A stretch of DNA of 39,340 bases from Bacteroidales bacterium (GTDB taxonomy: Bacteria > Bacteroidota > Bacteroidia > Bacteroidales > UBA932): positions 1 to 39,340 of the forward strand of contig JAFZWD010000010.1 of assembly GCA_017617495.1 (NCBI GenBank), written 5' to 3'. The notes beneath the pieces are model-generated. The model saw only the letters and a program-made list of their open reading frames with translations, did not search any database and had not been told where the DNA came from. Shown in pieces: positions 1-20,940 of this stretch (position 1 is its first letter; each line of letters opens with the position of its first letter). A program made the position numbers and the translations under genes.

Positions 1-2232
1 GATGAACATAATGAGCGCCGACACCAGCACGCTGTTTTTATAGGTGACCATCCGCTTGCGGCCGTAGGCGTATTCGTACATCAGCCCTTCGGTGATGAAT
101 ATGGTGTAGTCGTCGCCCTGCCCGAAGATGAATGTCGCCAGGATTATATTGACAATGTTGAAGGAAATGCCCATCAGCGACATGCTCCCCAAGATCCACA
201 GCCAGCTCACCGCCAGCGGCAGGAACGCCAGCAGTGCGGTTTCCACCCTTCGGAAGCTCAGCAGCAGGAAGATGAACACCACCAGCGAGCATATAGTCCC
301 TATGTAATCGAAGCTGCCCGACAGCACCTTCACCAACCCACCGGACACATCCTGCCCGCTGAACACCATCACATCGTTCCTCCCCTCCGGCACCTGAGGT
401 CTTTCTGCAGAGTACACTTTGTTTATAATGGCAACTCTTTGAGATTGCCGGTCGCCGCCGGCAATGACATATGTCCCGTCATAAACTTTCAGTACCGGCT
501 CAAAAAACTCTGCCGGTTGAACGAGATATTCCGTCGATACCAATCTTTCGAACGGTCCAAAAGCCCCGGCCGCAAAACCTTCGGCCTTTGCCTCCTTATG
601 TAGGTCGGCAATCAGCGTCGGATGAGCCGAAATAAAACTCCTCCACTTCTCCAATCTCCTCTCTTGTTCTTCTTTCGACGGCAATAAAATGCCTGGTCCT
701 TTTGTTGGCGCTTTTATTGTCTGTAGCAAACAATCATTTGCAACAAGCGCCCTCTCAAGGTCGGCCCCCTGGGCCACGGCAAACCACTCCTGCGCGTTCT
801 GGGTGCCGGCGAGCAGAGCCATATCCTCCCGCTGGGAAGCGGTCATGTAATTGATATGGTTCATGTCGGCATCGAAACGGATGCCGCGGCTGAACCACCC
901 CAGCACCAGGGTAATCGCCACGACGGCCAGCAGCAGCCAGGGGTTACGGATGCTGCGGTCCGGCAGGATCTCCCCGAGGTTCACCCTCATCGGCGTAGCC
1001 TCGTGGGCACGTGCGAACTGGGGCAGAAATATCAGCACAAAAAGAATCGTCCCCACCAGCATCAGGCCGCCGAAGAGACCGAAATCGCGCATCGCGGCAG
1101 CATCCAGCCACAGCAGGCAGAGGAACGCCGCCACGGTGGTGATGTTGCCCACCAGCAGGGGCTGCACCATCTCGCGCAGCACCTCCCGGACGGGCTTGCC
1201 CTCCTTGAGAATGTCCATGAAATGCAGCGGGTAATTCACTGCTATTCCGATAATTATGGACGCTATTCCGATGATTATTATGGAGATGCTCTGATGCACA
1301 ATCGCCACTGCGCCCAGCGCGAAAATCCAGCCGAAAGCCACCGAAACAAACACCCAGAGCAGGTCGGAGAATTTGCGGTAGGAGATAAAAAGAAGCAGCA
1401 GGATCAGCAGGGCCGCCAGCGAGATTGCCAGCACGCTGTCGCGCTTGATCTGGCTGGCATTGCTCACCGCGATGAGGGGCCCGCCGGTGGCCGAAACCCT
1501 GACCTCCGGCACCTCGTCCATAGTTGCCGCTGCCGCTTTGTCAATGAGATTCGATATCTCCGCATTCTTGCCGCTTTCGCTCATGCCGTAGGGCGAGGTC
1601 ATAAACGCCAGGCCGGTGCCGTCGGGGGTAAACACCACCCCGTCGCTCACCGACCAGCCCTCGGCCGAGGATGCTTCGCGAAGGCGCGCGGTCACACCGG
1701 CAAAGAGGCCCATCGGGTCCGCGCTCACCGCATCTGCCGTTATCTGCCCGGAGGGGAAAAGCAGCGCCTTGCGGGCGGAGGCAAGCTGATCGCGACGGGC
1801 TTCGGGGCTCGCCAGGATGGAATCGGCACGCGCGTAATCATCTTCCGTCAGGAAATAGGGGATGTTGGCGCGGAGGAAGTCCATCATCGCGAAAGCGCTC
1901 CCTTCGTCGGCAAAGAACTGGGTTTCGCTCACCAGGCCGGTGGTGTCGAGGGCTTCCCAGTTGCGCTCGAAGGCAGCCACCGCCTCGCCGATCGCGTAGA
2001 GGTCGTCGCCACGGAACAGCAGGATTATGTTATTCTTCTGCGAAAGCGCGTTGTAAACCTCGGAGTAGCGCTCGGTTTCGGGGTTGCTCGGCAGGAATTC
2101 CGAGATATCCTCGCCGTAGTGCAGGCCCTTCGCCAAAAATACCGCCCCCGCAACCAGCGCCAGCGCCAGAATCACACTCAACGCCCGGCGTTGCTGCAGG
2201 AAATCGAATATTTTTAGAAAAACCTTGGTCAT
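1..2232 (-). CDS. MMPL/RND-superfamily exporter, C-terminus beyond the window
   Basis: The minus-strand frame is open from the ATG at 2232 to the left edge (744 codons seen), so the C-terminus lies outside. After a short N-terminus (MTKVFLKIFDFLQQ) there is one membrane segment, a large soluble domain, then a cluster of membrane helices (IIIIGIASIIIGIAVNYPLH, then TTVAAFLCLLWL), a second soluble domain, and the start of a second helix cluster (FGQGDDYTIFITEGLMYEY). This two-fold layout is that of MMPL/RND exporters. Such exporters occur in aryl polyene clusters, where they are thought to move the lipid-linked product across the inner membrane. The gene is last seen in a long operon, 77 bases after the glycosyltransferase. 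A palindromic repeat at 441-468 is read in frame as YVIAGGDRQSQ between the soluble domain and the second helix cluster. Family call is firm; substrate is inferred from context. Confidence 0.88.
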   Translation of the reverse strand, partial: MTKVFLKIFDFLQQRRALSVILALALVAGAVFLAKGLHYGEDISEFLPSNPETERYSEVYNALSQKNNIILLFRGDDLYAIGEAVAAFERNWEALDTTGLVSETQFFADEGSAFAMMDFLRANIPYFLTEDDYARADSILASPEARRDQLASARKALLFPSGQITADAVSADPMGLFAGVTARLREASSAEGWSVSDGVVFTPDGTGLAFMTSPYGMSESGKNAEISNLIDKAAAATMDEVPEVRVSATGGPLIAVSNASQIKRDSVLAISLAALLILLLLFISYRKFSDLLWVFVSVAFGWIFALGAVAIVHQSISIIIIGIASIIIGIAVNYPLHFMDILKEGKPVREVLREMVQPLLVGNITTVAAFLCLLWLDAAAMRDFGLFGGLMLVGTILFVLIFLPQFARAHEATPMRVNLGEILPDRSIRNPWLLLAVVAITLVLGWFSRGIRFDADMNHINYMTASQREDMALLAGTQNAQEWFAVAQGADLERALVANDCLLQTIKAPTKGPGILLPSKEEQERRLEKWRSFISAHPTLIADLHKEAKAEGFAAGAFGPFERLVSTEYLVQPAEFFEPVLKVYDGTYVIAGGDRQSQRVAIINKVYSAERPQVPEGRNDVMVFSGQDVSGGLVKVLSGSFDYIGTICSLVVFIFLLLSFRRVETALLAFLPLAVSWLWILGSMSLMGISFNIVNIILATFIFGQGDDYTIFITEGLMYEYAYGRKRMVTYKNSVLVSALIMFI
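441..468. repeat. Palindromic element A, copy 1 (in the exporter gene)
   Basis: 28 bases with arms gattgccgg and ccggc(g)gcaatc-type symmetry; starts gagattgccggt and ends ccggcaatgac. Read in frame in the minus-strand gene as VIAGGDRQS. Identical over 28 bases to the copy at 3120-3147. Confidence 0.85.
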
Positions 2233-2233
2233 C

Positions 2234-2345
2234 GGCTGGCGGCTATCTTGTTGATTATCAGCGATTTGTTATAATCCTTCTGCGCTGTTTTTGGGGTAGA
2301 AGGAATAGCTTAATTTGTTGATTTGCTGCAAATTAGCCGCCAGCC
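2234..2345. repeat. 12-bp inverted repeat flanking the GT2/MMPL junction
   Basis: GGCTGGCGGCTA at 2234-2245 and TAGCCGCCAGCC at 2334-2345 are perfect reverse complements 88 bases apart. The right arm lies in the last codons of the glycosyltransferase and the left arm sits directly before the exporter start. They bracket the only sizeable gap inside an otherwise tightly packed operon. Confidence 0.7.
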
Positions 2346-3062
2346 AAATGTAAGGCCGCGGCGCGGCAGGCCGTAAACTAAAGCCAAAACGCAGAGCACC
2401 GTGTTGAGCAGGCTGATGCGGGCGAAGTCGGCGAAGGGGCGGAAGTGCGAAACGCGGTCCTCGGGGTAAAGCACCGTCACCGGCAGCTGCACGAAGCGGG
2501 CGCCGCGCCAGGCGCTGAAGACCAGCAGTTCCAGCTCCGCCTCGTAGCGCGAGGTGAGGAAGCGGATCGAGCGGATTTTGCGCAGGGGGTAGAGCCTGTA
2601 GCCGCACTGGGTATCGCGCAGGCGCACCCAGGTCTGGAGCGTGAACCAGAAGTTGCTGAAGCGGTTGGCGAAGGTGCTGCCGCCGGATTTGTTCTCGGCG
2701 GCGAGGTCTTCGCGGATGCCGACGATGAGCGCCCCGGGGTTCTGCCGTGCTGCCTCGAAGAAGGCCGGGAGGTCGGAGGGGAGATGCTGGCCGTCCGCGT
2801 CGATGGTTACCGCGGCGGAGTATCCCTGCCCGACGGCCAGGTCGAAGCCCGCCTTGAGGGCCGCCCCCTTGCCCTGGTTCTTGTGGCCGTTGATCGTGTC
2901 GATGCGGCCGGCGTATTTGCTCAGGATCGCGGCGGTGCCGTCGGTGCTGCCATCGTTCACCACTATCACGTTGCTGCTGTATTTAAGAACTTCGTCCAGC
3001 ACGCCCTTGAGCGTGCCGGCGTTGTTGTATGTCGGTATTATTACGCAGATGCTTTCACTCAT
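2310..3062 (-). CDS. Family 2 glycosyltransferase (dolichyl-phosphate-mannose-synthase-like)
   Basis: 250 residues beginning MSESICVIIPTYNNAGTL, a GT-A fold start. The nucleotide-binding VVNDGSTDGT motif is near residue 35 and the DXD-type metal site is in VTIDADGQHLPSDL near residue 85. QCGYRLYPLRKI near residue 155 is also typical of GT2 enzymes of the DPMS type. The C-terminus carries a hydrophobic stretch (LLNTVLCVLALVYGL), which may anchor the protein to the inner membrane. It overlaps the upstream dehydratase by 8 bases (ATGAGTGA), so translation is probably coupled. GT2 enzymes are standard members of aryl polyene clusters and presumably decorate the product or its lipid anchor; donor and acceptor are not visible from sequence. 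The reading frame after the stop stays open for a further 26 codons to the exporter start. Confidence 0.9.
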   Translation of the reverse strand: MSESICVIIPTYNNAGTLKGVLDEVLKYSSNVIVVNDGSTDGTAAILSKYAGRIDTINGHKNQGKGAALKAGFDLAVGQGYSAAVTIDADGQHLPSDLPAFFEAARQNPGALIVGIREDLAAENKSGGSTFANRFSNFWFTLQTWVRLRDTQCGYRLYPLRKIRSIRFLTSRYEAELELLVFSAWRGARFVQLPVTVLYPEDRVSHFRPFADFARISLLNTVLCVLALVYGLPRRGLTFGWRLICSKSTN

Positions 3063-3402
3063 ATCTCAATGTCTGCTTGCTGTAGATTGTTTCGGAATCC
3101 TTGACTAAAATTGTGGCTTGAGATTGCCGGTCGCCGCCGGCAATGACGTAGTCCAGCTCCTTCCCACCTTCCGGATACACCGGCGCGGTAAACTTAATAT
3201 TCGGCGCCCCTACCAGCCGGACCTTGCGGCCGAGCATGCGGCCGAGGAGTTCCACCCCGATGCGCACCAGAATCACCCCCGGGGTGATGGGCAGCTCCGG
3301 AAAGTGGGCCTTGTAGATGGTGTGCTCCGGGTTCAGCCGGATGCGGTAAACTCCTGAATCCGGGGTCTCTATGACGGTAAACAGCGATCCTTCGAGCTTC
3401 AT
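3055..3402 (-). CDS. Hotdog-fold 3-hydroxyacyl-ACP dehydratase (FabZ/ApeI-like)
   Basis: 115 residues. HTIYKAHFPELPITPGVILV is the FabZ/FabA-type active-site strand and central helix, with the conserved histidine in AHFP and the PG turn. It would dehydrate 3-hydroxyacyl-ACP during chain extension of the polyene, complementing the second dehydratase at 9248-9676. It is shorter than stand-alone FabZ. A palindromic repeat at 3120-3147, identical over 28 bases to the one in the exporter gene, is translated as DYVIAGGDRQSQ between the last two strands. It overlaps the upstream LolA-like gene by 4 bases (ATGA) and the downstream glycosyltransferase by 8. Confidence 0.85.
   Translation of the reverse strand: MKLEGSLFTVIETPDSGVYRIRLNPEHTIYKAHFPELPITPGVILVRIGVELLGRMLGRKVRLVGAPNIKFTAPVYPEGGKELDYVIAGGDRQSQATILVKDSETIYSKQTLRYE
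3120..3147. repeat. Palindromic element A, copy 2 (in the FabZ-like gene)
   Basis: Same 28 bases as copy 1. Translated as VIAGGDRQS in the hotdog dehydratase. Confidence 0.85.
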
Positions 3403-4046
3403 TGTATTTCGAACAGTTTTGCGGGAATGGCCGCGTTATACTTCTGGTTCTTCAGGGTGATTACGGTGCGGTCGCTGCCCTTTTCGAGCAGCTCGACTTT
3501 CTGCACCCGGTAGTCTTTGCCGAAATGCAGGCGCACCTTCCGGAACATCAACTGTATATCGTGGCGCGTGGGTATCAGATCCACGATAAGCACTCTGTTT
3601 TCGCGGGTAAGCGTCGCATCGAAGTCGGGAATATCTCCCAGGCCCTGGCCCAGCAGAATGTTGTTGCCGTCCGCCAGCTTGGAGATGCGGGAGAAAAGCC
3701 TGTCGGTCTTTATCTCCTTAACCTGCCGCTCCTTGCCCTGAAGCAGCACCTGAGTGCCGTCCATCACAAAAAGGAAGGGCTCCGGCGAGAGGTACTCCCA
3801 GCGCACATTCTTGCCGTCGAACCACATCTTGCCCTTGGACACCGGCTTGTCCGCCAGCATCGAGGAACTGCGCTCCTGCTCGAAGTCGCACTGCATGGTC
3901 CGGATGCTGCTGCACGCTTCGCGGATCAGCTCCAGATCGTCAGGAGATTGCCGGTCGAGGCCGGCAATGACGACAGTTGCGTCGTCACCCCGGACCTGAT
4001 CCGGGGTCCCAAGGCAAAAGAGCAATATGAAGAGGAGCCGTATCAT
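3399..4046 (-). CDS. LolA-like outer-membrane lipoprotein carrier protein
   Basis: 215 residues from the ATG at 4046, chosen because it overlaps the stop of the upstream gene as ATGA; a longer in-frame extension is only antisense to other genes. MIRLLFILLFCLG is a hydrophobic export signal. The mature part has LolA features: CDFEQERSSSMLADKPVSKG, a strand pair GKMWFDGKNVRWEYLSPEPF, and DRLFSRISKLADG. LolA-like proteins are found in aryl polyene clusters and are presumed to carry the lipid-linked product through the periplasm. The stretch just after the signal peptide core is encoded by two adjacent palindromic repeats (3944-3971 and 3984-4010), so the normal cleavage region has been replaced by repeat-encoded residues including VVIAGLDRQS. 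Confidence 0.85.
   Translation of the reverse strand: MIRLLFILLFCLGTPDQVRGDDATVVIAGLDRQSPDDLELIREACSSIRTMQCDFEQERSSSMLADKPVSKGKMWFDGKNVRWEYLSPEPFLFVMDGTQVLLQGKERQVKEIKTDRLFSRISKLADGNNILLGQGLGDIPDFDATLTRENRVLIVDLIPTRHDIQLMFRKVRLHFGKDYRVQKVELLEKGSDRTVITLKNQKYNAAIPAKLFEIQ
3944..4010. repeat. Composite of element A (3944-3971) and element B (3984-4010) in the LolA-like gene
   Basis: Element A reads VIAGLDRQS. Element B has arms ccccgga and tccgggg around a short centre and is read as LGTPDQVRGD. Together they encode most of the region between the signal peptide core and the first helix. Confidence 0.82.
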
Positions 4047-4393
4047 CTGGCCACTAGCACACACCCGGTTAAAATCAGCAACACACCCAGCCAGCGCACG
4101 AGCGAAATCTGCTCGTGGAAGATGAGCATCGCCGCAATCATACTGATGATATAGCTCAGGCTGAGCATAGGATAGGCCTGGCTGAAGGGCCAGTGCTTGA
4201 GGATGTAAACCCACATCACGGTACCCACCCCCATGCAGATGCCGGAGGCCAGCAGCCACCAGTTGGTGAGCAGGTCGCACCACCAGGCCCAGGTCCACTG
4301 CAGGCGGGAAAGGCGACCCGAAGCTATCTTCAGGAGCACCTGTCCGCCGCTGAAGAACACGGCCTGGATTATCGATAATATCAGCAGTTTCAT
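4043..4393 (-). CDS. Small four-helix DMT/SMR-type membrane protein
   Basis: 116 residues from the ATG at 4393, which overlaps the stop of the ketosynthase gene as ATGA. Four hydrophobic helices are visible: LILSIIQAVFFSGGQVLLKI, WWLLASGICMGVGTVMWVYI, AYPMLSLSYIISMIAAMLIF and LGVLLILTGCVLV. The length, the QVLLKIA motif in helix 1 and the E after helix 3 fit the EmrE/ArnE-ArnF side of the DMT superfamily. ArnE/F flip undecaprenyl-linked sugars, so a flippase role for a lipid-linked intermediate is a possibility suggested by the neighbouring GT2 gene. Drug efflux is the alternative. Context places it firmly in the polyene operon. Confidence 0.75.
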   Translation of the reverse strand: MKLLILSIIQAVFFSGGQVLLKIASGRLSRLQWTWAWWCDLLTNWWLLASGICMGVGTVMWVYILKHWPFSQAYPMLSLSYIISMIAAMLIFHEQISLVRWLGVLLILTGCVLVAR

Positions 4394-6282
4394 AAAGCTT
4401 TCAGTTTTACGGGGCCGCAGCACTCGTCTGCCTGACCGTTTGCGGCCAAACGTTCTATCGCGTTGTACAAATTCCGTGCGTCGAGCTCTCCGATGCCGTC
4501 GATTCCGGCAATCTCGCACAGTCCGTTCTCGTTTTCGGGCGTATTTGTGCACGGCACCGCCTCCAGCACCAGAGCCAACGAACCGTCGGGCACGGGATAG
4601 CCGGCAGTGTTGGGCGTGAGCTCGTCGTGGCAGCCGACCAGCGCCGTGCGGATTTTCCCGCTCTTTAGTTGCAGCCAGGCGTCCAGCAGTGCGGAAGCCA
4701 TCGAATCGGCCCCCTGCGAGTAGGTGCTGTTGTAGCCGTGGTCCTTGAGATGTATGGAGATGAGTGAGCCGGGAGTGTTGTGCGTGCTCTGCATGAAATC
4801 GGTCGGGCTCATCATTGTCTCGCCGCTTTCCAGCATCGCGGCGAGGAATTTTTCGCTGTTTTCCATGCAGCCAAGTCCGGTAGCAGTTATCACTGCGTCG
4901 GGGATGAGGCGCTCGCCGTCCTTCGAAGCAGCATCGAGCGCTTCCAGCGACGCGACCAGTGTGCGCTTCATCAGCGTGCCTAGCCTGCGGGCCTGCATAG
5001 GGTTAAGGAGATGCTTCCACTCGAAGTCGGCACCTTCCAGATAAACGGCCGAACGGACGACAATCTTAACCTCGGGTGAGGAAATTTCCTTGTCGGCAGT
5101 CTTGACGTCCGGCGCGGAAATTACCAGCGCCGAGTCGTTGCCGCCGAAGCCGAAGGAGTTGCAGAGAATATGGCGCGGGCTGCCGGCGACGGCTTCGGGC
5201 AGAGGCTGCACGCAGTCGGCATCGGGGTTCTGCCAGCCGATGTTGCCAGGGAGAAAACCCCGGCGGATAGCCTCGAGGCAGATAACCGTCTCAATGCCAC
5301 CGGAAGCACTTGTAGTGTGCCCTGTAAAGGATTTAGTGGACGAAACCGGCGGCATCGCATCGCCGAAAACACGCCGCAGCGCAGCACTTTCGGTGGCGTC
5401 GTTGTTGGGCGTGCCGGTGCCGTGGGCATTCACGTAGTCGATATCGGACGGCCTGAGGCCGGCCATCGCGAGCGCCTCGCTCATCGCGCGGAAAGCGCCT
5501 TCGCCCTCGGGGGAAGTCGCCGTCTGGTGGAACGCGTCGCAGGCATTGCCGTATCCGCTCACCAGGCCCAGAATCTCCGCTCCGCGCGCTTTGGCGTGCT
5601 CCTCGCTTTCGAGCACGACAAAGCCGGCGCCCTCGCCCAGGTTCAATCCGGCGCGGCCCGCGTCGAACGGACGGCATCGCTCCGAATCCAGAATCATCAG
5701 GGAATTGAAGCCGTTGAGATGGTAGCGCGTGAGGCTCTCGGACCCGCCCGCAAGCACCACATCCGCACGGCCGGCCTTAATCAGTTCGCTGCCGAAAACT
5801 ATCGCGTTTGCCGCGCTGGAGCATGCTGTGGAGATGGTTGTAACCTGCCCGAATATGCTGAAATATTCTGCAATGATGTCCGTGCAGCCGCCGCAGTCGT
5901 GGAGTTTTGTGTCGACGGTTGGGTAGGTGCGCTCGGTGATGTCCATGCCGCCCACGGTGGTGCCGTTGATAAGGACGGTTGCCTCGGAAGGGCAGGGGAT
6001 GGCTCCGTGGGTACAAAGGCCCGCCTGCTCCAGGGCCTCCTTGGCGGCGATTATGCCAAGGAGGGAAGTGCGGGGTACAGCGGTGGCGGCAGGGATGCCA
6101 AGGCGGGTTTTCATCTCCCCGTCGGAAAGATCGACCTCGCCGCAAGGCAGCTCCGAATGGACGGTCTGCAGATGCTTCAGGGGGCCGATTCCCGACCTAC
6201 CTTCAAGCAGCGAAGCGGCGGTCGCGGCCTTGTCCAGCCCAATCGCCGATACCACTCCGGCTCCTGTTATCGCTATACGCAT
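4390..6282 (-). CDS. Ketosynthase fused to a chain-length-factor-like domain
   Basis: 630 residues. Residues 1-390 are a FabF-type 3-ketoacyl-ACP synthase with an intact triad: Cys154 in TISTACSSAAN, His287 in VNAHGTGTPNND, His322 in KSFTGHTTSASG, and the glycine-rich NSFGFGGNDSALVIS end. From about residue 405 a second, incomplete ketosynthase-like domain follows, with SPTDFMQSTHNTPGS at 492-506, as in the Ketoacyl-synt_2 family that includes the chain-length-factor-like proteins of aryl polyene clusters. Condensing enzyme and putative length partner therefore sit on one polypeptide. It should extend the ACP-bound aryl starter with malonyl-ACP in the cytoplasm. It lies 35 bases after an ACP gene. 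No repeat insertion is seen in this gene. Confidence 0.9.
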   Translation of the reverse strand: MRIAITGAGVVSAIGLDKAATAASLLEGRSGIGPLKHLQTVHSELPCGEVDLSDGEMKTRLGIPAATAVPRTSLLGIIAAKEALEQAGLCTHGAIPCPSEATVLINGTTVGGMDITERTYPTVDTKLHDCGGCTDIIAEYFSIFGQVTTISTACSSAANAIVFGSELIKAGRADVVLAGGSESLTRYHLNGFNSLMILDSERCRPFDAGRAGLNLGEGAGFVVLESEEHAKARGAEILGLVSGYGNACDAFHQTATSPEGEGAFRAMSEALAMAGLRPSDIDYVNAHGTGTPNNDATESAALRRVFGDAMPPVSSTKSFTGHTTSASGGIETVICLEAIRRGFLPGNIGWQNPDADCVQPLPEAVAGSPRHILCNSFGFGGNDSALVISAPDVKTADKEISSPEVKIVVRSAVYLEGADFEWKHLLNPMQARRLGTLMKRTLVASLEALDAASKDGERLIPDAVITATGLGCMENSEKFLAAMLESGETMMSPTDFMQSTHNTPGSLISIHLKDHGYNSTYSQGADSMASALLDAWLQLKSGKIRTALVGCHDELTPNTAGYPVPDGSLALVLEAVPCTNTPENENGLCEIAGIDGIGELDARNLYNAIERLAANGQADECCGPVKLKAL

Positions 6283-6317
6283 AATGCCTTGTACGCTCTT
6301 CTGCCCGGCCCCGGTCG

Positions 6318-6581: not shown

Positions 6582-6591
6582 AATCTTGATA

Positions 6592-8451
6592 TTAGCCTTC
6601 TAAGATATACATTTTTGCATTAAAGTCGTTTTCGGAGGAGCATTCGCACCAGCCTGCGATGGCCGACATCCCGGGTTCCAGAGATTCTTCCACTATGCCC
6701 TGCATAAGTTCCTCGTCCGGTTCGGGGATGCAGTAGAAGGATGTCTCCGCGTAGTATTTGTTTCGGATGGCGATTTCGCCGGTGACGATGTTCGGCAGAG
6801 TGTACACAAACAGCGAGGGGCTGCCCAGATGGTCCGGCCCGTCGATGCCGCGCTGATAGTTGATGTCGTCGGCGAGCGATCCGCTGCGGTTGAACAGGAT
6901 AACCGCGCGCTTGTCTGTCGGCTGACGGTCGCCACCCTCGGCCTGCAGCAGAAGTTCGGACGCCACAAAGCCCAGTTTCGCGAGAGGATCCATCTTAAAG
7001 AACTTGGGCCAGTCGCCTATATATTTGCGGTAGATGGCTTCCAGTAGCGCCGGGCCTTCTGCCTCAACGTTGAGCTTGGCACCGTCGAGCACCACCCGGG
7101 AGGGTGTTATCTCTACATTGTGCTTCGCCCTCAATAGATTCTTCGGAGCGTTTTCTTTAACTATTTGATTACCAGAATTTTCCACAAAATCGATGCTCCG
7201 TTTTGGCGCATCAATTTTCAGTAACGCGCTATCATTCAATCTGTTAGTAAAAACGGCATCTTTGTAGAGGCGGCTGAAAAGCATCGCGGCATTGACGCCG
7301 CCGAAGCCGGACAGGAGTTTTACGAAGGATTGTTTGCCGCCCTCGATGGGAGCGTTCTGCGAGCTGAGCTTTAGGGTCCGGCTCACGCCGATGTTTTCGA
7401 ACCCGCGCGTTCCGAGGACTGTTCCGTCCTCAACTGCCGCCATACTCAGGATGGTCTCAAGCACCCCTGCCGCACCGAGTGTGTGGCCGAAATAGCCTTT
7501 GAGGGTATTCACTGGGATGTTCGCCAGCCCGGCCCTGTCGATGGCGATGGATTCCATTTCGTCGTTGTACAGGGTTGAGGTGCCGTGAACGTTGATGAAT
7601 GCAACGTCGTCGACGACAGATTGCCGGTCGCTGCCGGCAATGACAGCCTGTGATAAGCAGTCCAGGGCGGCCATAAGCGCCCGGTAGCTTCCCTCGCCAG
7701 TGCGCGACGGCCCGCTGATATGGTTGGCATCGTTGCAGATTGCGCCCGACACCGCGCACCACACCCTGTCATCCTGGGAAGCCTCCTTTCTGTCATCCTG
7801 AGGAGCCGAAGGCGACGAAGGAACCTCAGCGCCGTATATTATACAGGCAGCCGCTTCCCCCAGGTTGAGTCCGCAACGGTCGGCATCGAAGGGCCGGCAC
7901 TGCTCCGGACTGAGCGCCTTGAGACTCTGGAAACCGGAGATGACAAAGCGGCCTACCACATCGGCACCAATCACCACCGCATAATCGCAGCGGCCGGACT
8001 CGATTACCCTCAACGCCTCGATCTGCGCCGCCAACCCCGAGATACAGGCGTTGCTCACTACCACCGGGGTGTTCGGATTTCCGAACCAGCGGCTAACCTG
8101 CAATGCAGCTGCCGCTGGAGATTGCCGGTCACAGCCGGCAATGACGGTTGTCGAGCCAGCCGAAGCACCGTCCAGAAGTTCTACGTTGGCTTTTGTGGTG
8201 GAGATAATAAAGATTACCCTGTCCGACGCCGCGTCGATGCCCGCCTCTTTAATTGCCGGTTCTGCACAGGCAATGCATCGTTCTTCAAACGACGCTTTAT
8301 CATCGAAGAGCGAAGCGAAATACCCTTCCGGCAGAAGGTCCGTGGCGGGGTAGGCCTTGAGGGCGCTGAGCCCGGCCTTCACCGCACGGTAATTCGCCTG
8401 GGTTCCGACACCCAGCGGCGAAATAATATTATCTGCCAGTTTTACTATCAT
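6592..8451 (-). CDS. Ketosynthase with degenerate C-terminal half and multiple repeat insertions
   Basis: 619 residues from the ATG at 8451, chosen because it overlaps the upstream stop as ATGA. Active-site residues are intact: Cys136 in VSNACISGLAA, His289 in INVHGTSTLYND, His323 in GYFGHTLGAAG. Residues 360-619 are a weakly conserved second half with fragments such as FNRSGSLADDINYQRGID, probably another ketosynthase-like partner domain. Three repeat-encoded segments interrupt the first domain: residues about 93-111 (GASAGSTTVIAGCDRQS, DNA 8118-8170), about 209-229 (DNA 7766-7827) and about 269-278 (AVIAGSDRQS, DNA 7618-7644). A fourth, weaker resemblance is at DNA 6918-6942 (EGGDRQP). All keep the frame, so the enzyme may still be active. 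It lies between the L,D-transpeptidase-like gene and an ACP. Confidence 0.87.
   Translation of the reverse strand: MIVKLADNIISPLGVGTQANYRAVKAGLSALKAYPATDLLPEGYFASLFDDKASFEERCIACAEPAIKEAGIDAASDRVIFIISTTKANVELLDGASAGSTTVIAGCDRQSPAAAALQVSRWFGNPNTPVVVSNACISGLAAQIEALRVIESGRCDYAVVIGADVVGRFVISGFQSLKALSPEQCRPFDADRCGLNLGEAAACIIYGAEVPSSPSAPQDDRKEASQDDRVWCAVSGAICNDANHISGPSRTGEGSYRALMAALDCLSQAVIAGSDRQSVVDDVAFINVHGTSTLYNDEMESIAIDRAGLANIPVNTLKGYFGHTLGAAGVLETILSMAAVEDGTVLGTRGFENIGVSRTLKLSSQNAPIEGGKQSFVKLLSGFGGVNAAMLFSRLYKDAVFTNRLNDSALLKIDAPKRSIDFVENSGNQIVKENAPKNLLRAKHNVEITPSRVVLDGAKLNVEAEGPALLEAIYRKYIGDWPKFFKMDPLAKLGFVASELLLQAEGGDRQPTDKRAVILFNRSGSLADDINYQRGIDGPDHLGSPSLFVYTLPNIVTGEIAIRNKYYAETSFYCIPEPDEELMQGIVEESLEPGMSAIAGWCECSSENDFNAKMYILEG
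7618..7644. repeat. Element A, copy 4 (in the ketosynthase gene)
   Basis: agattgccggt...gccggcaatgac, read as VIAGSDRQS just before the active-site His strand of the ketosynthase at 6592-8451. Confidence 0.83.
7766..7827. repeat. Element D in the ketosynthase gene
   Basis: tgtcatcctgaggagccga then aggcgacgaaggaacctc at 7791-7827, preceded by a partial copy ctgtcatcctggga at 7766-7779. Read in the gene as PSSPSAPQDDRKEASQDD. Confidence 0.75.
8118..8170. repeat. Composite of element A (8118-8145) and element E (8146-8170) in the ketosynthase gene
   Basis: Element A reads VIAGCDRQS; element E (ggttgtcgagccagccgaag, then caccg) reads GASAGSTT. The same A-E order recurs at 15388-15440. Confidence 0.8.
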
Positions 8452-9676: not shown

Positions 9677-10590
9677 TTCCAGAATTCAAAGAAGTTGTAC
9701 CATTGGTCGGGGTAGCGCAGGAGGATCCCCGACACCGCGTCGGCGTAGCGCTGGGCCAACACCTGCGCCCGCTCCCGGGCGGATAGAGATTGCTGATCGG
9801 GGTCGGCAATGACGTCTAATCTCTCGATATAGATCTTGAAGCGCCTGTACCCGACCTTGACGCAGAACACCGCTATCACCGGCAATTCATCATTAATCGA
9901 ACTTGCCAGGACGAACGGCCCTTGGGGTAGGTCGGCGGGAGCACCGAGAACGGAGCAGGAGAATGCCTTGGGGGATCCGAAGAGGCGGTCGCCGTGAATG
10001 TCCACGACCTCACCGTTCTCGAGAGCCTCCTTAAGGACAAAGATGTGCGAGATCCCGTCGGTAATGGGCACCATGCGGATATTGTTCTCGGCAAGAAGCC
10101 GAGCTCGCCCGCTGCGGACCTCCTCGACCTCGCCACCATAAGCCAGCACATTCAAGCGTGCCTTGGCGCGAAGGTCATACCCCGCCATCTCGTGATTGCC
10201 GATATGCGAAGATAACATCATAAACCCGCGGCCGGAGGCCTCAATCTCGCGGTAGTGGTTATGCCCGACCACCTCGATCGAAAACTTCTTGCCCGCGTAT
10301 GCGGCGAACCTGTCCACCACCACCTGCCCAAAGCCAAAGTGGTTTCGCCAGAGATGACAAAAGGTCTTAAAAACGCCAAACCCCTGCCGACGGCGGAAAT
10401 AATGCCAGATGGCGAGGGTTGCCTTGGGGCGGACAATCATGTAGACAGGCAGGGAAAAGGCCATCAGGAAATAGATGAACCAAAGAGGGGTGAAGCGCAA
10501 AATACGAATCAGCGCCCTGTGCATCCACGGGGTGCCGTCCGTTGTTCCGCGCCACTGCCCGGTGGCCACCTGCTGTCCGCCGGAGGACAT
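9673..10590 (-). CDS. LpxL/HtrB-type lysophospholipid acyltransferase family protein
   Basis: 305 residues. An N-terminal membrane anchor (LWFIYFLMAFSLPVYMIV) is followed by the acyltransferase HX4E motif in LSSHIGNHEMAGYD near residue 130, then VVDIHGDRLFGSPKAF and a C-terminal RYPDQWYNFFEFW typical of LpxL-family enzymes. In aryl polyene clusters such enzymes are thought to transfer the finished polyene from ACP to a lipid acceptor at the inner membrane. The start ATG shares one base with the ACP stop (TAATG). A degenerate copy of the palindromic repeat at 9786-9813 is read as VIADPDQQS, suggesting an older insertion. The acceptor lipid is not identifiable. Confidence 0.88.
   Translation of the reverse strand: MSSGGQQVATGQWRGTTDGTPWMHRALIRILRFTPLWFIYFLMAFSLPVYMIVRPKATLAIWHYFRRRQGFGVFKTFCHLWRNHFGFGQVVVDRFAAYAGKKFSIEVVGHNHYREIEASGRGFMMLSSHIGNHEMAGYDLRAKARLNVLAYGGEVEEVRSGRARLLAENNIRMVPITDGISHIFVLKEALENGEVVDIHGDRLFGSPKAFSCSVLGAPADLPQGPFVLASSINDELPVIAVFCVKVGYRRFKIYIERLDVIADPDQQSLSARERAQVLAQRYADAVSGILLRYPDQWYNFFEFWK
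9786..9813. repeat. Degenerate element A (in the acyltransferase gene)
   Basis: gagattgctgatcggggtcg then gcaatgac. Read as VIADPDQQS; the loss of pairing suggests an older insertion. Confidence 0.65.
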
Positions 10591-10835: not shown

Positions 10836-10837
10836 AA

Positions 10838-11938: not shown

Positions 11939-11939
11939 A

Positions 11940-13463: not shown

Positions 13464-13482
13464 ATTGCTTGGTTACAATCTT

Positions 13483-13490: not shown

Positions 13491-13511
13491 CGAATAATTG
13501 AGTTAAAAATG

Positions 13512-13519
13512 TATCTTTG
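13512..13519 (+). promoter_or_regulatory. -7 promoter box for the divergent ketosynthase gene
   Basis: TATCTTTG lies only 6 bases before the ATG at 13526. If transcription starts where it usually does for this box, the mRNA has almost no leader. Confidence 0.6.
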
Positions 13520-13525
13520 CATTAT

Positions 13526-14746
13526 ATGCAAAACAGAGTTGTCATTACCGGCCTTGGAATATGGTCGTGCCTGGGAACCTCGCTGGACGAAGTGCGCGAT
13601 TCCCTTTACAGGGGAAAATCCGGCATTGTGGTGGACCCGATGCGCATCGAGATGGGCTTCCGTTCGCCCCTTACCGGAGTAGTGCCGATGCCCGAACTCA
13701 AGGGCGAGCTAAGCCGCCAGCAGAGGGCATTCATGCCCGAGCAGGCGATGTATGCTTACTGCTCCACCCGCGACGCCCTGCGCGATGCCGGCATCGACGA
13801 AGACTTCCTCGCAGCGCACGAAGTGGGGCTGCTTTTCGGCAACGACTCTTCCGCCCAGCCGGTAGTTAAGGGCTGGGACCTCATGCGCGAGAAAAACGAC
13901 ACCACCCTCTGCGGTTCCGGCTCCATATTCCAGAGCATGAACAGCACGGTAACCATGAACCTCGACTGCATCTTCAAGCTTCGCGGAATCAACCTTACCG
14001 TGTCCGGAGCATGCGCCAGCGGCTCTCACGCAATCGGACTTGGGGCTCTGCTCATCCAGAACGGCCTGCAGGACATCGTGGTCTGCGGCGGGGCGCAGGA
14101 AACCAACCCTTACGGAGTGGGAAGTTTCGACGGAATTTCGGCATTCTCCATACGTGTAGAGCACCCCGAAAAGGCCAGCCGTCCTTTCGACCGCGACCGC
14201 GACGGACTCGTGCCTTCGGGCGGTGCCGCAACTGTTATTCTGGAAAGCTACGAGAGCGCTGTCAAGCGTGGCGCGCACATCTACGGAGAGGTACTCGGCT
14301 ACGGTTTTTCGGGCAACGGCGACCATATCTCCACCCCCAACGTGGACGGGCCCAAGCGTTCGCTGGAAATGGCCCTGAAGCGTGCCGGACTGGGCATCGC
14401 CGACATCGGCTACATCAACGCCCACGCCACCTCGACTCATGTGGGCGACGCCAACGAAGCCAAGGCAATTTTTGCAGTTTTCGGCGAGAAGAGCGTGCCG
14501 GTTACCAGCACCAAGGGCCAGACGGGCCACGAAATGTGGATGGCCGGCGCGTCCGAGGTAATCTACTCACTGCTGATGATGCACGGCGACTTCATTGCCG
14601 GCAACCTCAACTTCGAGCACCCGGACGAAGACTCAGAGCATCTACTAATCGTGCCCGAAACCCGCGCCGCACACTTCGACTGCTTCCTCAGCAACTCGTT
14701 CGGCTTCGGAGGCACCAATTCCAGCCTGATAATCAAGAGGGTTTAA
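13526..14746 (+). CDS. FabF-type 3-ketoacyl-ACP synthase (third ketosynthase)
   Basis: 406 residues from the ATG at 13526; an upstream TTG at 13517 lies within the promoter box and is unlikely. Catalytic residues are Cys163 in VSGACASGSHA, His300 in INAHATSTHVGD and His335 in KGQTGHEMWMAGA. The glycine-rich C-terminal NSFGFGGTNSSLII is complete. Unlike the other two ketosynthases it has no second domain and no repeat insertion. It resembles the FabF/FabB-like condensing enzyme that starts the chain in aryl polyene clusters (inferred). It is the only plus-strand gene in the cluster, divergent from the ammonia-lyase and overlapping the oxidoreductase tail-to-tail by 4 bases. Confidence 0.92.
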   Translation: MQNRVVITGLGIWSCLGTSLDEVRDSLYRGKSGIVVDPMRIEMGFRSPLTGVVPMPELKGELSRQQRAFMPEQAMYAYCSTRDALRDAGIDEDFLAAHEVGLLFGNDSSAQPVVKGWDLMREKNDTTLCGSGSIFQSMNSTVTMNLDCIFKLRGINLTVSGACASGSHAIGLGALLIQNGLQDIVVCGGAQETNPYGVGSFDGISAFSIRVEHPEKASRPFDRDRDGLVPSGGAATVILESYESAVKRGAHIYGEVLGYGFSGNGDHISTPNVDGPKRSLEMALKRAGLGIADIGYINAHATSTHVGDANEAKAIFAVFGEKSVPVTSTKGQTGHEMWMAGASEVIYSLLMMHGDFIAGNLNFEHPDEDSEHLLIVPETRAAHFDCFLSNSFGFGGTNSSLIIKRV

Positions 14747-16266
14747 TCCCCGGCTTCCGCAATCATTTTACAGGTCAGCACCGATGTGATGCTGACGCCC
14801 AGCAGCCCCGCGAGATTGAGATTCTGCCCCGTGAGCCAGAGGCCTTTGACGGGGGTGCGGGAGGGAATGAGCGTGCCAAGCGGGTTGCGCCAGTCTTTGC
14901 GGATGCCGAAGGCCGATCCTCCCGGCGTGCCGGTGAAGTGCTCCCAGGTGAGCGGAGTGCTTGTCCAGACATTTTCAACTGCGCCTGAAAGCCCGGGCAG
15001 AGCGGTTTCCGCCAGCGCGAGGACCTCCCGAAGCTTTGCTTCTTTGGCCGCCTCATAAACACTTCCGGCGGCCTGATATGCCATCGGCGCAATAAGGTCC
15101 AGCCTGTCGGCAAAGCCATCCTCCGAAGGATAAAAGTAGATCATCACCCGGTCCGTGCCTTCCGCAGCGGGATGCCAGGGATCCGCCCCCGGAGCGTAGG
15201 CGTAGATGTTCCCGTCCCTTGCAGGGATGATGCCCTTTTTAAGGGCGATGTTGGCGGTGAACACGCCGAAGCTGCAGGGCAGCGAGCAGATGCGCGAGCG
15301 GTATGCCTTGCGCACCCCGGCCTCGTCGCCCACCAGCGCCAGCGTTGCCGCCGGGTGGATGTCGCTGACGACTATATCGGCAGTGATGAGATTGCCGGTC
15401 GTGGCCGGCAATGACGGTTGCTGAGCCTGCCGAAGCACCGTCACCCCGGACCCGATCCGGGGTCCCTTCGCCCTGACGCCTACCACCCGCCCGTCGACGA
15501 CGTCGATGCCGGTGACCTCGGCGCCAAGGATCACCCGGCCACCAAGCGCCTCAATCTGCTCAACCAGCCGGTCGGCTATCTGCTGACCGCCGCCTTCGAG
15601 CTTCCAGGCACTCTGCACGAAGGAATTGTTTATCTGCGCAAAATTGTACAGCGGCAGCGTGTCCGCCGCCAGCTCCATACGCATAAAGGCGCCGCTAAGC
15701 ACCCGGCGCAGCGTGTCGTCGTGGATGGTTTCCTGCAGAAACTCATAGGCGCTGCGGCTGAAGAGCGGGTTCGGCCCCTCGTTCCCGGGGCCGACAGCAT
15801 CGAAAATATGGCTTCCCACATCGCGGAGGGCCGCCACAAAGCGCTCCAGCCCCTCTCTTTCGGTGGGGAAAATCGCCGCCAGGCGGTCCACAAAATTGCG
15901 GTAGCCGGACGCCAGGGGATAGGCCTTGCCGTCCAGCACTATCTCGTCGACACAGTCGGGGTTTATCTGCTTCCAGGGCAGGTCCAGAAGGCCGAATTCG
16001 GCAAAGAGAGTGTGCAGGCTTTCGCCTTCGCCAAGGCCGCCGACGTAGTGGACGCCGGTGTCGAAGCGACAGATGCCCGATCGGGTCGGGCATGACGAGG
16101 GTGAGGTCGGGAATAATGACCTCCGGCGTTCAAAGCTTTGCAGGCAGCCTCCGGCACGGGTGGGATGCTTCTCCAGCACCGTCACGGCATAGCCACGGCG
16201 CGCCAAAATAAGGGCGCACTCAAGCCCCCCGAGACCGCTGCCGATTATGACTGCCCGCTTTGCCAC
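14743..16266 (-). CDS. CrtI-like FAD-dependent oxidoreductase (phytoene desaturase superfamily)
   Basis: 507 residues. The FAD-binding GSGLGG is at 9-14 in VIIGSGLGGLECALILARRG, followed by VLEKHPTRAGG, and the C-terminal FAD contact is in GLWLTGQNLNLAGLLGVS. This is the carotenoid desaturase/isomerase and retinol saturase superfamily. In a polyene cluster it may adjust double bonds or the head group; the reaction is not known. It has two repeat-derived insertions: DNA 16071-16120, giving LFPTSPSSCPTRSGI right after the ring-binding RAGG region, and DNA 15388-15466, a composite of three repeats giving SGVTVLRQAQQPSLPATTGN. In the second insertion the 28-bp element is read in a different frame from that in other genes. 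Both keep the gene open. Confidence 0.85.
   Translation of the reverse strand: MAKRAVIIGSGLGGLECALILARRGYAVTVLEKHPTRAGGCLQSFERRRSLFPTSPSSCPTRSGICRFDTGVHYVGGLGEGESLHTLFAEFGLLDLPWKQINPDCVDEIVLDGKAYPLASGYRNFVDRLAAIFPTEREGLERFVAALRDVGSHIFDAVGPGNEGPNPLFSRSAYEFLQETIHDDTLRRVLSGAFMRMELAADTLPLYNFAQINNSFVQSAWKLEGGGQQIADRLVEQIEALGGRVILGAEVTGIDVVDGRVVGVRAKGPRIGSGVTVLRQAQQPSLPATTGNLITADIVVSDIHPAATLALVGDEAGVRKAYRSRICSLPCSFGVFTANIALKKGIIPARDGNIYAYAPGADPWHPAAEGTDRVMIYFYPSEDGFADRLDLIAPMAYQAAGSVYEAAKEAKLREVLALAETALPGLSGAVENVWTSTPLTWEHFTGTPGGSAFGIRKDWRNPLGTLIPSRTPVKGLWLTGQNLNLAGLLGVSITSVLTCKMIAEAGD
15388..15466. repeat. Triple composite A-E-B in the oxidoreductase gene
   Basis: Element A at 15388-15415, element E at 15416-15440 and element B at 15440-15466 lie end to end, about 79 bases in all. 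Element A is read here as SLPATTGNL, a different frame from the other genes. Confidence 0.83.
16071..16120. repeat. Element C (16071-16096) and an adjoining repeat in the oxidoreductase gene
   Basis: Element C has arms atgcccga and tcgggcat. It is followed by gaggtcgggaataatgacct. Read as SLFPTSPSSCPTRSGI. Confidence 0.7.
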
Positions 16267-16284
16267 TGTGATAAAAAACGGCGG

Positions 16285-17010
16285 CTAAAAAATGCCGCCG
16301 TTGATACTGATTACTTCTCCGTTGATGTAGGCGGCCCGGTCGCTCGCCAGGAAGGCGACCAGTTCGGCCACCTCCTCGGGCTTCCCGAAGCGTTTCGCCG
16401 GGATGGTTTTGGCGAGTTCTTCGGCGTCCAGACCCTCCACCATGTCGGTGGCGATAAAGCCGGGCGCTACCGCATTGACCGTCACCTTGCGCGCAGCAAC
16501 TTCCTGGGCCAGGGCCTTTGTGGCAGCGATCAGTCCGCCTTTCGCGGCGCTGTAATTAGTCTGCCCCGGGAGCCCCTTGAGGCCGGAAAGCGAAGCTATG
16601 TTTATAATGCGGCCGGCGCGGTGCACAACCATCGGCTGAAGCAGCTGTTTGCTTACGTTGTAGAAGCTGTCCAGGTTGGTCCGGAGCACCTTGTACCAGT
16701 CGTCCGGCTCCATCCACAGGAGGAGATTGTCCTTGCGGATGCCAGCGTTGTTCACCAGCACGGCGATGTACTCGTCGGGGTGCGCGGTCTGCCATTCGGC
16801 AAGGGCTTTTTCGGTCGCCGCATAATCGGCGACATCGAACTTAAGCAGCTCTCCGTCACCGCCGGCCGACTGAATCCGGGCGAGGGTTTCCTGTGCGGCC
16901 GCGTCGTTGGACACGTAGTTCACCAGCACATAATAACCCTCGGCGGCCAGCTTAACGCTGACCGCACGTCCGATTCCCCGGCTTCCGCCGGTAACAAGGG
17001 CAACCTGCAT
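16285..17010 (-). CDS. FabG-like 3-ketoacyl-ACP reductase (ApeQ-like)
   Basis: 241 residues of the short-chain dehydrogenase family. The NADPH-binding TGGSRGIG is at 7-14, NNAG at 87-90, and the catalytic Ser140, Tyr153 and Lys157 are in IINIASLSG and TNYSAAKGG. The C-terminus NGEVISINGGIF matches FabG. It supplies the ketoreduction step between condensation and dehydration in polyene extension. Its ATG overlaps the stop of the cysteine-rich lipoprotein gene by one base (TAATG), and the oxidoreductase gene follows after 18 bases, so the three form one operon. Confidence 0.93.
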   Translation of the reverse strand: MQVALVTGGSRGIGRAVSVKLAAEGYYVLVNYVSNDAAAQETLARIQSAGGDGELLKFDVADYAATEKALAEWQTAHPDEYIAVLVNNAGIRKDNLLLWMEPDDWYKVLRTNLDSFYNVSKQLLQPMVVHRAGRIINIASLSGLKGLPGQTNYSAAKGGLIAATKALAQEVAARKVTVNAVAPGFIATDMVEGLDAEELAKTIPAKRFGKPEEVAELVAFLASDRAAYINGEVISINGGIF

Positions 17011-17261
17011 TACTTCTTGCAGCAGGGCTTCTCGCAGCCTTCTGCCTTAGGGCAGGCTTCGCCTTCGGTGCAGCCTTCTGCCTTGGGGCACTCCTGTCCC
17101 TCAGCGCAAGCTTCCTTTACAACGCAGCTGTCTGCCTTTTCGCAGCATGCCTCGACCTGGCAGGCCTTCTTTTCGGCAGCCTTCTTGCCGCAACACTTAC
17201 AGGAAGAAACGGCCAGCACCGCCAGGGCGCAAACGGCCAGAATTGCAAAAAACTTTTTCAT
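17010..17261 (-). CDS. Small lipoprotein with eight cysteines at exact six-residue spacing
   Basis: 83 residues. MKKFFAILAVCALAVLAVSSC is an SPII signal with the lipid-modified Cys at 21. The mature part has 14 cysteines in 63 residues. Eight of them, at 34, 40, 46, 52, 58, 64, 70 and 76, are spaced exactly six apart, forming C-x5 repeats such as CPKAEG, CTEGEA, CPKAEG; CC pairs occur at 23-24, 39-40 and 80-81. The rest is Glu, Lys and Ala. I do not recognise the family. Possible roles are metal binding or a disulfide ladder in the periplasm. It heads the operon with the FabG-like and CrtI-like genes, and its stop overlaps the FabG start. Confidence 0.85.
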   Translation of the reverse strand: MKKFFAILAVCALAVLAVSSCKCCGKKAAEKKACQVEACCEKADSCVVKEACAEGQECPKAEGCTEGEACPKAEGCEKPCCKK

Positions 17262-19458: not shown

Positions 19459-19533
19459 GTTTCAGTGTTATTTTTAGAATTAGTGCTAATATAATCATTA
19501 ATTTGGGTATATTTACATCAATTCATAGTATAA
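19459..19533. promoter_or_regulatory. Divergent control region of rhaM and rhaBATD
   Basis: 75 AT-rich bases between the two starts. TATATTTA at 19509-19516 is an imperfect plus-strand -7 box, and ATTAGTGCTAAT near 19480-19491 is a near-palindrome that could bind a regulator. No AraC-type rhamnose regulator gene is in the window. Confidence 0.35.
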
Positions 19534-20940
19534 ATGATGGATAAGCGTTTTCTTGCCTTTGATTGCGGCGCAACTTCCGGCCGCGCCGTGCTGGCCACTT
19601 TTTCCGACGGCCGCTTCGAGATGAAAGAAGTTTACCGCTTCCCCAGCGGCATAATTGAACTGCACGGAAAGTATTACTGGGATATCCTTGGCATCTATGA
19701 GCACTTTTGCAAATGCCTGTCCCAGCTGGAACACGAAGGCATCGTGCCGGACTCCATCGGCATAGACACCTGGGGTGTCGACTTCGGTTTCGTGGCCTGC
19801 GACGGCTCGCTGCTCGGAAACCCCCGCGCATACCGCGATCCTTACACCGACGGCATCCCCGAGGAGGTCTACAAGACCATTCCACGCGAGGAACTCTACG
19901 CCGCCACCGGCATTCAGATAATGAACTTCAACTCCATCTTCCAGCTCTATGCTCAGAAGAAGGAGGGGTTCGCTCCGCTGCTTAACGCAAAGAACATCCT
20001 GTTCATACCGGACCTGCTGGCCTATATGCTCACCGGCAAAATGGTTTGCGAATACACCATAGCCTCAACCTCCGGCATGATGGACCAGGCCACGCGACAG
20101 TTCAACAAAGGTCTTCTGGAGAGTCTGGGCCTGCGGAGCGACGTCCTGCTCCCTATAGTCCAGCCGGGGGTGGAGATCGGCAGATACCACGGCATACCGG
20201 TCGTAGCGGTGGCGGGCCACGATACCGCCTCTGCCATCGCCGCAGTGCCGGCAGCGGACGAGAAGTTCGCCTACCTGTCCAGCGGCACCTGGAGCCTTAT
20301 GGGAATCGAAGTGCCGGCGCCGGTTATCAATGCCGACAGCGCCCGCCTCAACTTTACCAACGAGGGCGGCATCGAAGGCACCACCCGCTTCCTCAAAAAC
20401 ATTACCGGAATGTGGCTCCTGGAGCAATGCCGCAAGGTCTGGAAGGCCGAAGGCAAGGACTATTCCTACGCGCAGCTTGTAGAGATGGCCAAGGCCGAAG
20501 TCGCATTCCCCGGGCGCATAAACCCCGACGATCCGAGGTTTGCCAACCCTGCCAATATGGTGGAGGAGATTGCCGGTCAGGCCGGCAATGACGGTCGTCA
20601 TGCCCGACCCGATCGGGCATCTCTTACCGATGCGCAGATTGTCTCCTGCATCTACCACTCCCTGGCCGACCGCTACAAAGAAGTCCTGGAAATGCTTCAG
20701 GGCTTCGCCCCCTTCAAGATAGAAAAACTCCACATAATAGGCGGAGGCAGCGCCAACGAACTGCTCAACCAGTGGACTGCCGATGCCATCGGGATGCCGG
20801 TGGTTGCCGGCCCCACCGAAGCCACTGCAATCGGCAACATAATGATTCAGGCCAAGGCCGCGGGTCTCGTTGCAGACCGTTGGGAAATGCGCCGCATGAT
20901 TGCCGCAGCATTCGAAGTTAAAACTTATAACCCGTCATAA
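19534..20940 (+). CDS. rhaB: L-rhamnulokinase
   Basis: 468 residues of the FGGY kinase family. FLAFDCGATSGRAVLATF is the N-terminal phosphate motif, GIDTWGVDFGFVA and GHDTASAIAAVPA follow, YLSSGTWSLMGIE is the adenosine-side motif and IIGGGSANELLNQWTADA lies near the C-terminus. It phosphorylates L-rhamnulose with ATP. The gene starts the rhaB-rhaA-rhaT-rhaD operon. At residues 345-363 an insertion, IAGQAGNDGRHARPDRAS, is encoded by two palindromic repeats (20566-20592 and 20597-20623). Here the 28-bp type element lies in the opposite orientation relative to the gene from that in the polyene genes, yet the frame remains open. Confidence 0.94.
   Translation: MMDKRFLAFDCGATSGRAVLATFSDGRFEMKEVYRFPSGIIELHGKYYWDILGIYEHFCKCLSQLEHEGIVPDSIGIDTWGVDFGFVACDGSLLGNPRAYRDPYTDGIPEEVYKTIPREELYAATGIQIMNFNSIFQLYAQKKEGFAPLLNAKNILFIPDLLAYMLTGKMVCEYTIASTSGMMDQATRQFNKGLLESLGLRSDVLLPIVQPGVEIGRYHGIPVVAVAGHDTASAIAAVPAADEKFAYLSSGTWSLMGIEVPAPVINADSARLNFTNEGGIEGTTRFLKNITGMWLLEQCRKVWKAEGKDYSYAQLVEMAKAEVAFPGRINPDDPRFANPANMVEEIAGQAGNDGRHARPDRASLTDAQIVSCIYHSLADRYKEVLEMLQGFAPFKIEKLHIIGGGSANELLNQWTADAIGMPVVAGPTEATAIGNIMIQAKAAGLVADRWEMRRMIAAAFEVKTYNPS
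20566..20623. repeat. Composite of element A (20566-20592) and element C (20597-20623) in rhaB
   Basis: The gagattgccggt end of element A comes first in the coding direction, the reverse of the polyene genes. Read as IAGQAGND and RHARPDRAS. Confidence 0.85.

Follow-up and report, generated by a model that had tools for sequence, protein, structure and literature searches.

How does a short palindrome come to lie, in frame, inside a series of unrelated proteins? The question is raised by a stretch of 39,340 nucleotides, hereafter the window, from a genome of the order Bacteroidales (GTDB lineage UBA932; assembly GCA_017617495.1, contig JAFZWD010000010.1). We refer to this genome as G000 and to six relatives in its genus as G284, G342, G070, G024, G019, and G272; the relatives of G000 are Bacteroidales metagenome-assembled genomes (MAGs) of gut and rumen, which led us to drop an alphaproteobacterial origin. 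A sequence-only reading of the window had reported eight copies of a palindrome within at least seven genes, none of which disrupts the frame, and this is indeed what we find: all eight are present, in seven genes, and an open reading frame is kept at each. We consider it probable that these hairpins are CGTC-tagged repetitive extragenic palindromes (REPs), and that this short, non-autonomous element has recently multiplied in this species and is tolerated as extra loops in the proteins that carry it.

A 29-base consensus, GAGATTGCCGGTCNNNGCCGGCAATGACR, matches seven of the eight copies with three or fewer mismatches and finds nothing in each of 100 shuffles of the window. The remaining copy, at 20566, is one base shorter in the loop than copies of the GAGATTGCCGGTCNNNGCCGGCAATGACR type. 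The unit length of 28 bp first proposed holds for the form with a 5-nt loop; the form with a 6-nt loop is 29 bp long, and the copy at 9786 is degenerate. As had been noticed, the peptide VIAGxDRQS or a variant is read from six of the eight copies, and those at 15388 and 20566 read SLPATTGNL and EIAGQAGND, respectively. One outcome that would have counted against insertion, namely homologues with these peptides at the same sites, did not occur: the aligned relatives are without them there.

The repeat unit and its place among known families

Read from the tag, the unit consists of CGTC or TGTC, the half-stem ATTGCCGR, a loop, the half-stem YCGGCAAT, and a tail of CTC or CCC, which amounts to an 8-bp stem and a 3-nt tail. 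With the tag required as C or T followed by GTC, the G000 stretches contain about 87 distinct exact hairpins, 50 with a 5-nt loop, 36 with a 6-nt loop, and one with a 4-nt loop. Three permuted tags gave no hairpins in G000 and the other groups, save for one match in G019. The last pair of the stem covaries, being G-C or A-T with both sides in step. Other stems are built on the same plan (ATGCCCGA in nine hairpins, ACCCCGGA in two, plus singles). When the whole genome was scanned with up to two mismatches, the 6-nt form was found in 34 exact copies, five with one mismatch, and two with two; the 5-nt form in 36 copies with at most one mismatch and three with two; and the 4-nt form in one copy. 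The small number of mismatched copies of the 6-nt form suggests that the element is young. Likewise, because stem and tag are almost invariant, the copies look young beside the split of G000 and G284, which are separated by 1.2-2.6 synonymous substitutions per site (dS).

The closest known relatives are the CGTC-tagged REPs, families CGTC-1 to CGTC-4, of Di Nocera et al. (2013; PMC3733652), the source for our comparisons with this superfamily. Its members are recognized by a CGTC tag (TGTC and CCTC being variants) and a stem of 8-9 bp that almost always has A-T at the first and second position. The stems of G000 conform to this, with six of the roughly 87 exact hairpins starting with AC. The likeness further extends to the terminal CGTC or TGTC, the 8-bp stem that mostly starts with AT, the unpaired 3-nt tail, the occurrence of paired elements, the lack of an associated transposase, and the presence of some intragenic copies.

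There are also differences from the published families (PMC3733652). Loops of 51 G000 hairpins fall within the 4-5 nt given in Table 1 of that paper, whereas those of 36 are 6 nt long, and we therefore file the element as a variant of the superfamily rather than as one of families 1 to 4. The tail is mostly CTC or CCC in G000 and mostly CCA in the superfamily. When two hairpins stand within 40 nt of each other, the tags point inward in 15 of 16 pairs in G000, in all four in G070, and in 9 of 10 in G024; by the naming used in that paper, this type is listed as rare for CGTC repeats, whose tags predominantly lie outside (denoted HH). Of 14 such pairs in G019, 4 are inward and 10 tandem, and 15 of 26 in G342 are outward. 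Finally, most REPs are intergenic, unlike the majority of copies in the examined G000 stretches and of those in G070; in the stretches sampled, the copies of G342, G024, G019, G272, and six other genomes counted together (the mixed group) fit the intergenic pattern.

A parallel with the Rickettsia palindromic elements (RPEs) had been drawn from the sequence alone, and it was right in kind: RPE-4 (CGTC-4) and RPE-6 (CGTC-1) of Rickettsia conorii belong to the superfamily whose architecture the G000 hairpins match, as does dRS3 of Neisseria (CGTC-1) (PMC3733652). The likeness to RPE-4 and RPE-6 was judged on family architecture. RPEs are also palindromes that stand in frame in unrelated proteins, many of them conserved. 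However, Rickettsia belongs to another phylum, and the RPE of 105-146 bp (PMC2229807) is far longer; one insert-bearing Rickettsia enzyme has been shown to be made and active (same source). The dRS3 elements share the superfamily plan, and with many of them clustered in intergenic mosaics (PMC3733652) they are nearer to the copies of G342 than to those of G000.

The same reading knew of no description for this clade. We likewise found no paper on the lineage, and no title or abstract opening that deals with its repeats came up in a literature search that was partly swamped by another meaning of RPE. However, CGTC repeats have been reported from five phyla, Bacteroidetes among them, with intragenic ones in several species (PMC3733652). 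Rickettsia is the best-known home of palindromes that code for protein, and other organisms have provided isolated cases (PMC3733652); here they appear in another phylum and with an unusually high intragenic share.

The hairpins differ from the GTAG-tagged REPs that are associated with REP-associated tyrosine transposases (RAYTs) in that their tag is CGTC and no PF01797 gene flanks them. G000 has four PF01797 genes. The examined stretches around three of them are free of hairpins, and the fourth lies 410 nt from a pair inside the neighboring tsaB gene. Mobilization by a RAYT was considered and set aside because none of the four is flanked by elements.

Placement in and between genes across the genus

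Genes were called with a codon-score caller made for this analysis, which is not a published gene finder, and a copy was scored as intragenic if at least 45 nt of called gene lay on either side. By this measure, 79.5% of the bases in the G000 stretches qualify. The counts leave out copies less than about 100 bases from the end of a stretch, overlap duplicates, and stems mispaired at more than one position. Stretches were selected for ATTGCCGR copies, and other stems were counted only where those stretches contained them.

On this basis, 67 of 92 copies in G000 are intragenic, and they lie in frame in 44 genes. The earlier claim that copies are only intragenic thus stands within the window and fails genome-wide, given that 25 of the 92 copies in the examined stretches are not. 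Set against the 79.5% of qualifying bases, hairpins of all forms taken together are no more frequent in genes than chance would have it; they simply do not avoid them. The genic excess that had been proposed applies only to the 6-nt-loop form, where it is slight (36 of 38, p = 0.015), and the 5-nt form avoids genes (31 of 53, p = 0.0005). Compared directly, the two forms differ with a Fisher p of 8e-5, a comparison chosen after the data had been seen; for the ATTGCCGR stem alone, 33 of 35 copies with a 6-nt loop are intragenic, as are 16 of the 35 with a 5-nt loop (p = 1e-5).

The nearest relative by window DNA among 400 sampled genomes of the genus is G284, with approximately 78% identity, and its whole assembly holds no exact copy of the ATTGCCGR stem. 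A search for decayed hairpins in 59 kb of G284 returned a single palindrome with a tag, its 7-bp stem being unrelated in sequence, and stronger decay would escape such a search. Across the genus, the exact pattern is found in 143 of the 400 genomes, G000 included, with 0 to 76 copies each; only G342 has more than G000 (76 versus 68). We also examined 119 genomes of the order. The exact pattern occurs in none of the 117 that belong to other families, the remaining two being G000 and one further genus member.

Might these hairpins be a product of chance or of faulty assembly? The G000 MAG is incomplete, being 74% complete and in 61 contigs. However, there were no matches in shuffles, a backwards-pattern control gave 0 in every genome listed, and the same element recurs in the 143 genus genomes. 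We consider either origin wholly improbable.

The species of the genus differ in where the hairpin lies. The ATTGCCGR copies examined were 29 of the 76 counted in G342, 10 of 30 in G070, and 9 of 35 in G272, and the G342 stretches were picked because their DNA matched a block of G000 genes. None of 58 sampled copies in G342 is intragenic, which sets it apart from G000 (p = 6e-22). G070 resembles G000 (15 of 18 intragenic), and lower shares are seen in G024 (11 of 33), G019 (10 of 31), G272 (2 of 15), and the mixed group (10 of 27). A single genus, with at least 400 sequenced species, thus includes some species that lack the hairpin, one in which every sampled copy is intergenic, and others in which most copies are within genes. 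In G024 (L205 and L214), four similar long open frames have one and the same pair of hairpins at a corresponding position, and copies there seem to have spread with the gene family.

Loop length was considered as the sole determinant of placement. The idea holds in G000. Elsewhere, intragenic 6-nt-loop copies number 0 of 26 in G342, 4 of 14 in G019, 0 of 2 in G024, 0 of 1 in G272, and 5 of 16 in the mixed group, as against 8 of 10 in G070, and loop length is therefore at most part of the story.

These distributions also bear on whether the hairpins could be functional RNA or DNA elements under selection, perhaps for transcript stability or as protein binding sites, with their genic place secondary. 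The stem is almost invariant and compensated, as such a role would lead one to expect, and since the same hairpin stands in several readings, its conservation is not at the protein level. However, copies of the ATTGCCGR stem range from 0 to 76 among the 400 genus genomes, with none in G284, and placement is wholly different between G000 and the sampled G342 stretches. A functional role of this kind strikes us as quite unlikely.

Host proteins, readings, and insertion sites

What do the hairpins contribute to the proteins that carry them? Forty of the 44 host proteins were scanned against profiles, three of these being without an NCBIfam match. Matches above the cut-off include isoleucyl-tRNA synthetase (IleRS), TsaB, RadA, the RsmE family, the gamma and a subunits of ATP synthase, FtsY, TruB, aspartate-semialdehyde dehydrogenase (Asd), TilS, RdgB, and a topoisomerase IV/gyrase A domain. 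Most bacteria cannot do without several of these genes. As many as four hairpins occur in one protein: RsmE has four counted hairpins at three sites, and ApbE has three hairpins. One further host frame (L117:1876-4332) is open throughout; its first half matches LptF, its second half matches methionyl-tRNA formyltransferase, and the hairpin is near the end; it is either a gene fusion or the result of a lost stop.

The 36 intragenic 6-nt-loop copies are read as VIAGxDRQS in 20 cases, SLPA-TGNL in eight, RLPVxAGND in seven, and otherwise in one. If five open readings were equiprobable, 20 of 36 in one reading would have p = 3e-6. One reading is favored, either through selection or through the insertion process. 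The hairpin lies on the same strand as the gene in 28 of these copies and on the opposite strand in eight.

Relative to the host genes, the hairpins stand in either orientation and in four or more readings. We propose that an enzyme acting in trans might move the element. Frame-breaking copies would have been purged, and gene-preserving copies would survive as added loop sequence, with about 10 residues per hairpin and at least 20 per pair. Insertion sites would be surface loops, often ones expanded in G284 too, and copying would be recent. The host proteins stay under purifying selection, the ratio of nonsynonymous to synonymous substitution being 0.09-0.22 in all eight host genes compared with G284. 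The interpretation offered by the sequence-only reading, in which tolerated insertion and mobility were both entertained, is partly supported by these comparisons.

It is also possible, though we would not bet on it, that the loops were already long when the hairpins arrived. This lineage might expand loops by several means, with hairpins being one possible content, an idea compatible with the tolerated-element reading. In the ketosynthase of G000, five sites have gained 4 or more residues, and CGTC hairpins occupy two of them; the G284 protein is expanded at each of the five (by 41, 18, 58, 17, and 14 residues) without CGTC hairpins. Among 35 other aligned sequences, the 8118 site is expanded in 11 and the 7618 site in none. 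A G284 insertion also coincides with the hairpin site in the exporter, the oxidoreductase, RsmE sites 1 and 3, ApbE, and RadA; RadA is 19 residues shorter at its site in ten other genomes, whereas the G284 protein falls short by 3 residues there and has an unrelated sequence. Moreover, three insert-bearing G284 genes hold close direct duplications, spaced at 36, 51, and 57 nt, each of which is divisible by three. However, the LolA 3944 site and the second RsmE site are not expanded in G284, the acyltransferase 9786 site differs by only 3 residues, and the G284 loops, which at many hairpin sites are long and non-palindromic, could equally be decayed old elements. Either these are such remnants, or they are loops already prone to expansion.

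Several points weigh against recent, tolerated insertion. The substitution ratio of the host genes spans the whole time since the split from G284 (dS 1.2-2.6), not just the time after insertion. Since only open frames are called as genes, a gene-breaking copy would score as not intragenic. No element-flanked transposase is present in G000 among PF01797 genes, the only family tested. The flanks of copies show at most weak base preferences, and no clean empty site was found among the compared relatives. Net lengths at the window sites are also uneven: 12 amino acids shorter at 7618 in all 10 orthologous matches (nine genomes), 6-12 shorter in homologues at 8118, from 9 shorter to 3 longer among six homologues at 3120, and, at 441, 4 shorter in two homologues, with two more that could not be aligned. 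Because net length differs by homologue, no single insert length can be given, and "insertion" may include replacement of loop sequence. Exact boundaries could not be drawn against the closest relative, which is about 78% identical in DNA. A target-site consensus was dropped in view of the weak base preferences, as was a rule on summed pair length modulo 3, for which spacers gave no consistent net length.

The loops of the hairpins pose a puzzle. Loop positions 2 and 3 vary strongly in the intragenic 6-nt-loop copies of G000, with 3.0 of a maximum of 4 bits (n = 33). Variation is lower in the 5-nt-loop copies, at 1.9 bits when intragenic (n = 16) and 1.2 bits when non-genic (n = 19), and in the intergenic 6-nt-loop copies of G342 (1.1 bits, n = 25), some of which may have arisen by local duplication. 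All seven intragenic 6-nt loops of G070 differ from one another. Searches of this kind favor perfect stems, yet the two-mismatch scan added few further copies. Strong loop variation beside a constant stem might stem from changes made during copying, from more than one source lineage, or from selection acting on the residue that the loop encodes.

More speculatively, the 6-nt form might be a gene-adapted REP subfamily whose extra base brings frame tolerance. Copying would keep the stem and re-draw the two central loop bases, thereby supplying surface loops with one variable residue that later decay into linkers of the G284 type. We regard this as unlikely. The contrast between constant stem and variable loop provides a handle on the copying mechanism of CGTC repeats. 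The system also makes it testable whether selfish DNA is merely tolerated, whether loop tolerance of the host came first, and how new protein segments originate.

Two further features of G284 deserve mention. Its proteins (at L174, L175, and L196) contain many long low-complexity insertions without CGTC hairpins. It also shares with G000 a second, longer palindromic repeat (AAATCGATGCTCC...GGAGCATCGATTT), which lies in the ketosynthase gene at window 7146-7255 (core 7187-7217) and at approximately 18814-18844 of L174. With up to three mismatches, this repeat has 11 sites in G000, 13 in G284, and none in four other genus members. It is in frame at the same ketosynthase place in both genomes, whereas inspection by eye showed it in none of the 35 further homologues. 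Judging from this shared position, it has apparently been kept in frame since their common ancestor.

Hairpin map of the window

A scan for tagged palindromes (tag, stem of at least 7 bp, short loop) gave 11 in the window and 3 in a reversed control sequence. Hairpins beyond the eight first listed stand at 3983, 15439, 16070, and 20596; three are partners of listed copies, and the one at 16070 is solitary.

Six of the CGTC-type hairpins have a 6-nt loop and lie on the minus strand within minus-strand genes. They are found at 441..469 in an MMPL exporter gene (1-2268), at 3120..3148 in a FabA-like dehydratase gene (3055-3402; Pfam score of 20.7 bits, under the cut-off of 23), at 3944..3972 close to the start of LolA (3399-4046), at 7617..7645 (copy 7618) and 8118..8146 in the ketosynthase gene (6592-8451), and at 15388..15416 in a FAD/NAD oxidoreductase gene (14743-16266), where the reading is SLPATTGNL. 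The LolA copy stands behind what by eye appears to be a signal peptide. Its partner at 3983..4010 (plus strand) has stem ACCCCGGA and a 5-nt loop, and the tags of the two point toward each other. The same stem and loop length recur at 15439..15466 (plus strand), which pairs with 15388 across a 22-nt spacer. Also within the oxidoreductase gene, the solitary hairpin at 16070..16097 (minus strand) has stem ATGCCCGA, a 5-nt loop, and the peptide SCPTRSGI.

The degenerate copy, with 3 mismatches to the window consensus, lies at 9786..9814 (minus strand) in a lipid A-type acyltransferase gene (9673-10590, minus strand). In a plus-strand gene for an FGGY-family sugar kinase (19534-20940), a minus-strand hairpin with a 5-nt loop at 20566..20593 is paired across a 2-nt spacer with one at 20596..20623 (plus strand; stem ATGCCCGA, 5-nt loop).

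The 22 nt that follow two copies are nearly identical (window 8147-8168 and 15417-15438; GTTG..GAGCC.GCCGAAGCAC), and some units may therefore be a larger composite element. Elsewhere in the window are two adjoining GTGTCCC/GGGACAC palindromes 51 bases apart (8752-8832) and a 36-base tandem pair (17034-17105). Ketosynthases, a hotdog dehydratase, LolA, an MMPL exporter, and an acyltransferase make up the gene set at window 1-16300, which we take to resemble an aryl polyene/flexirubin-type cluster.

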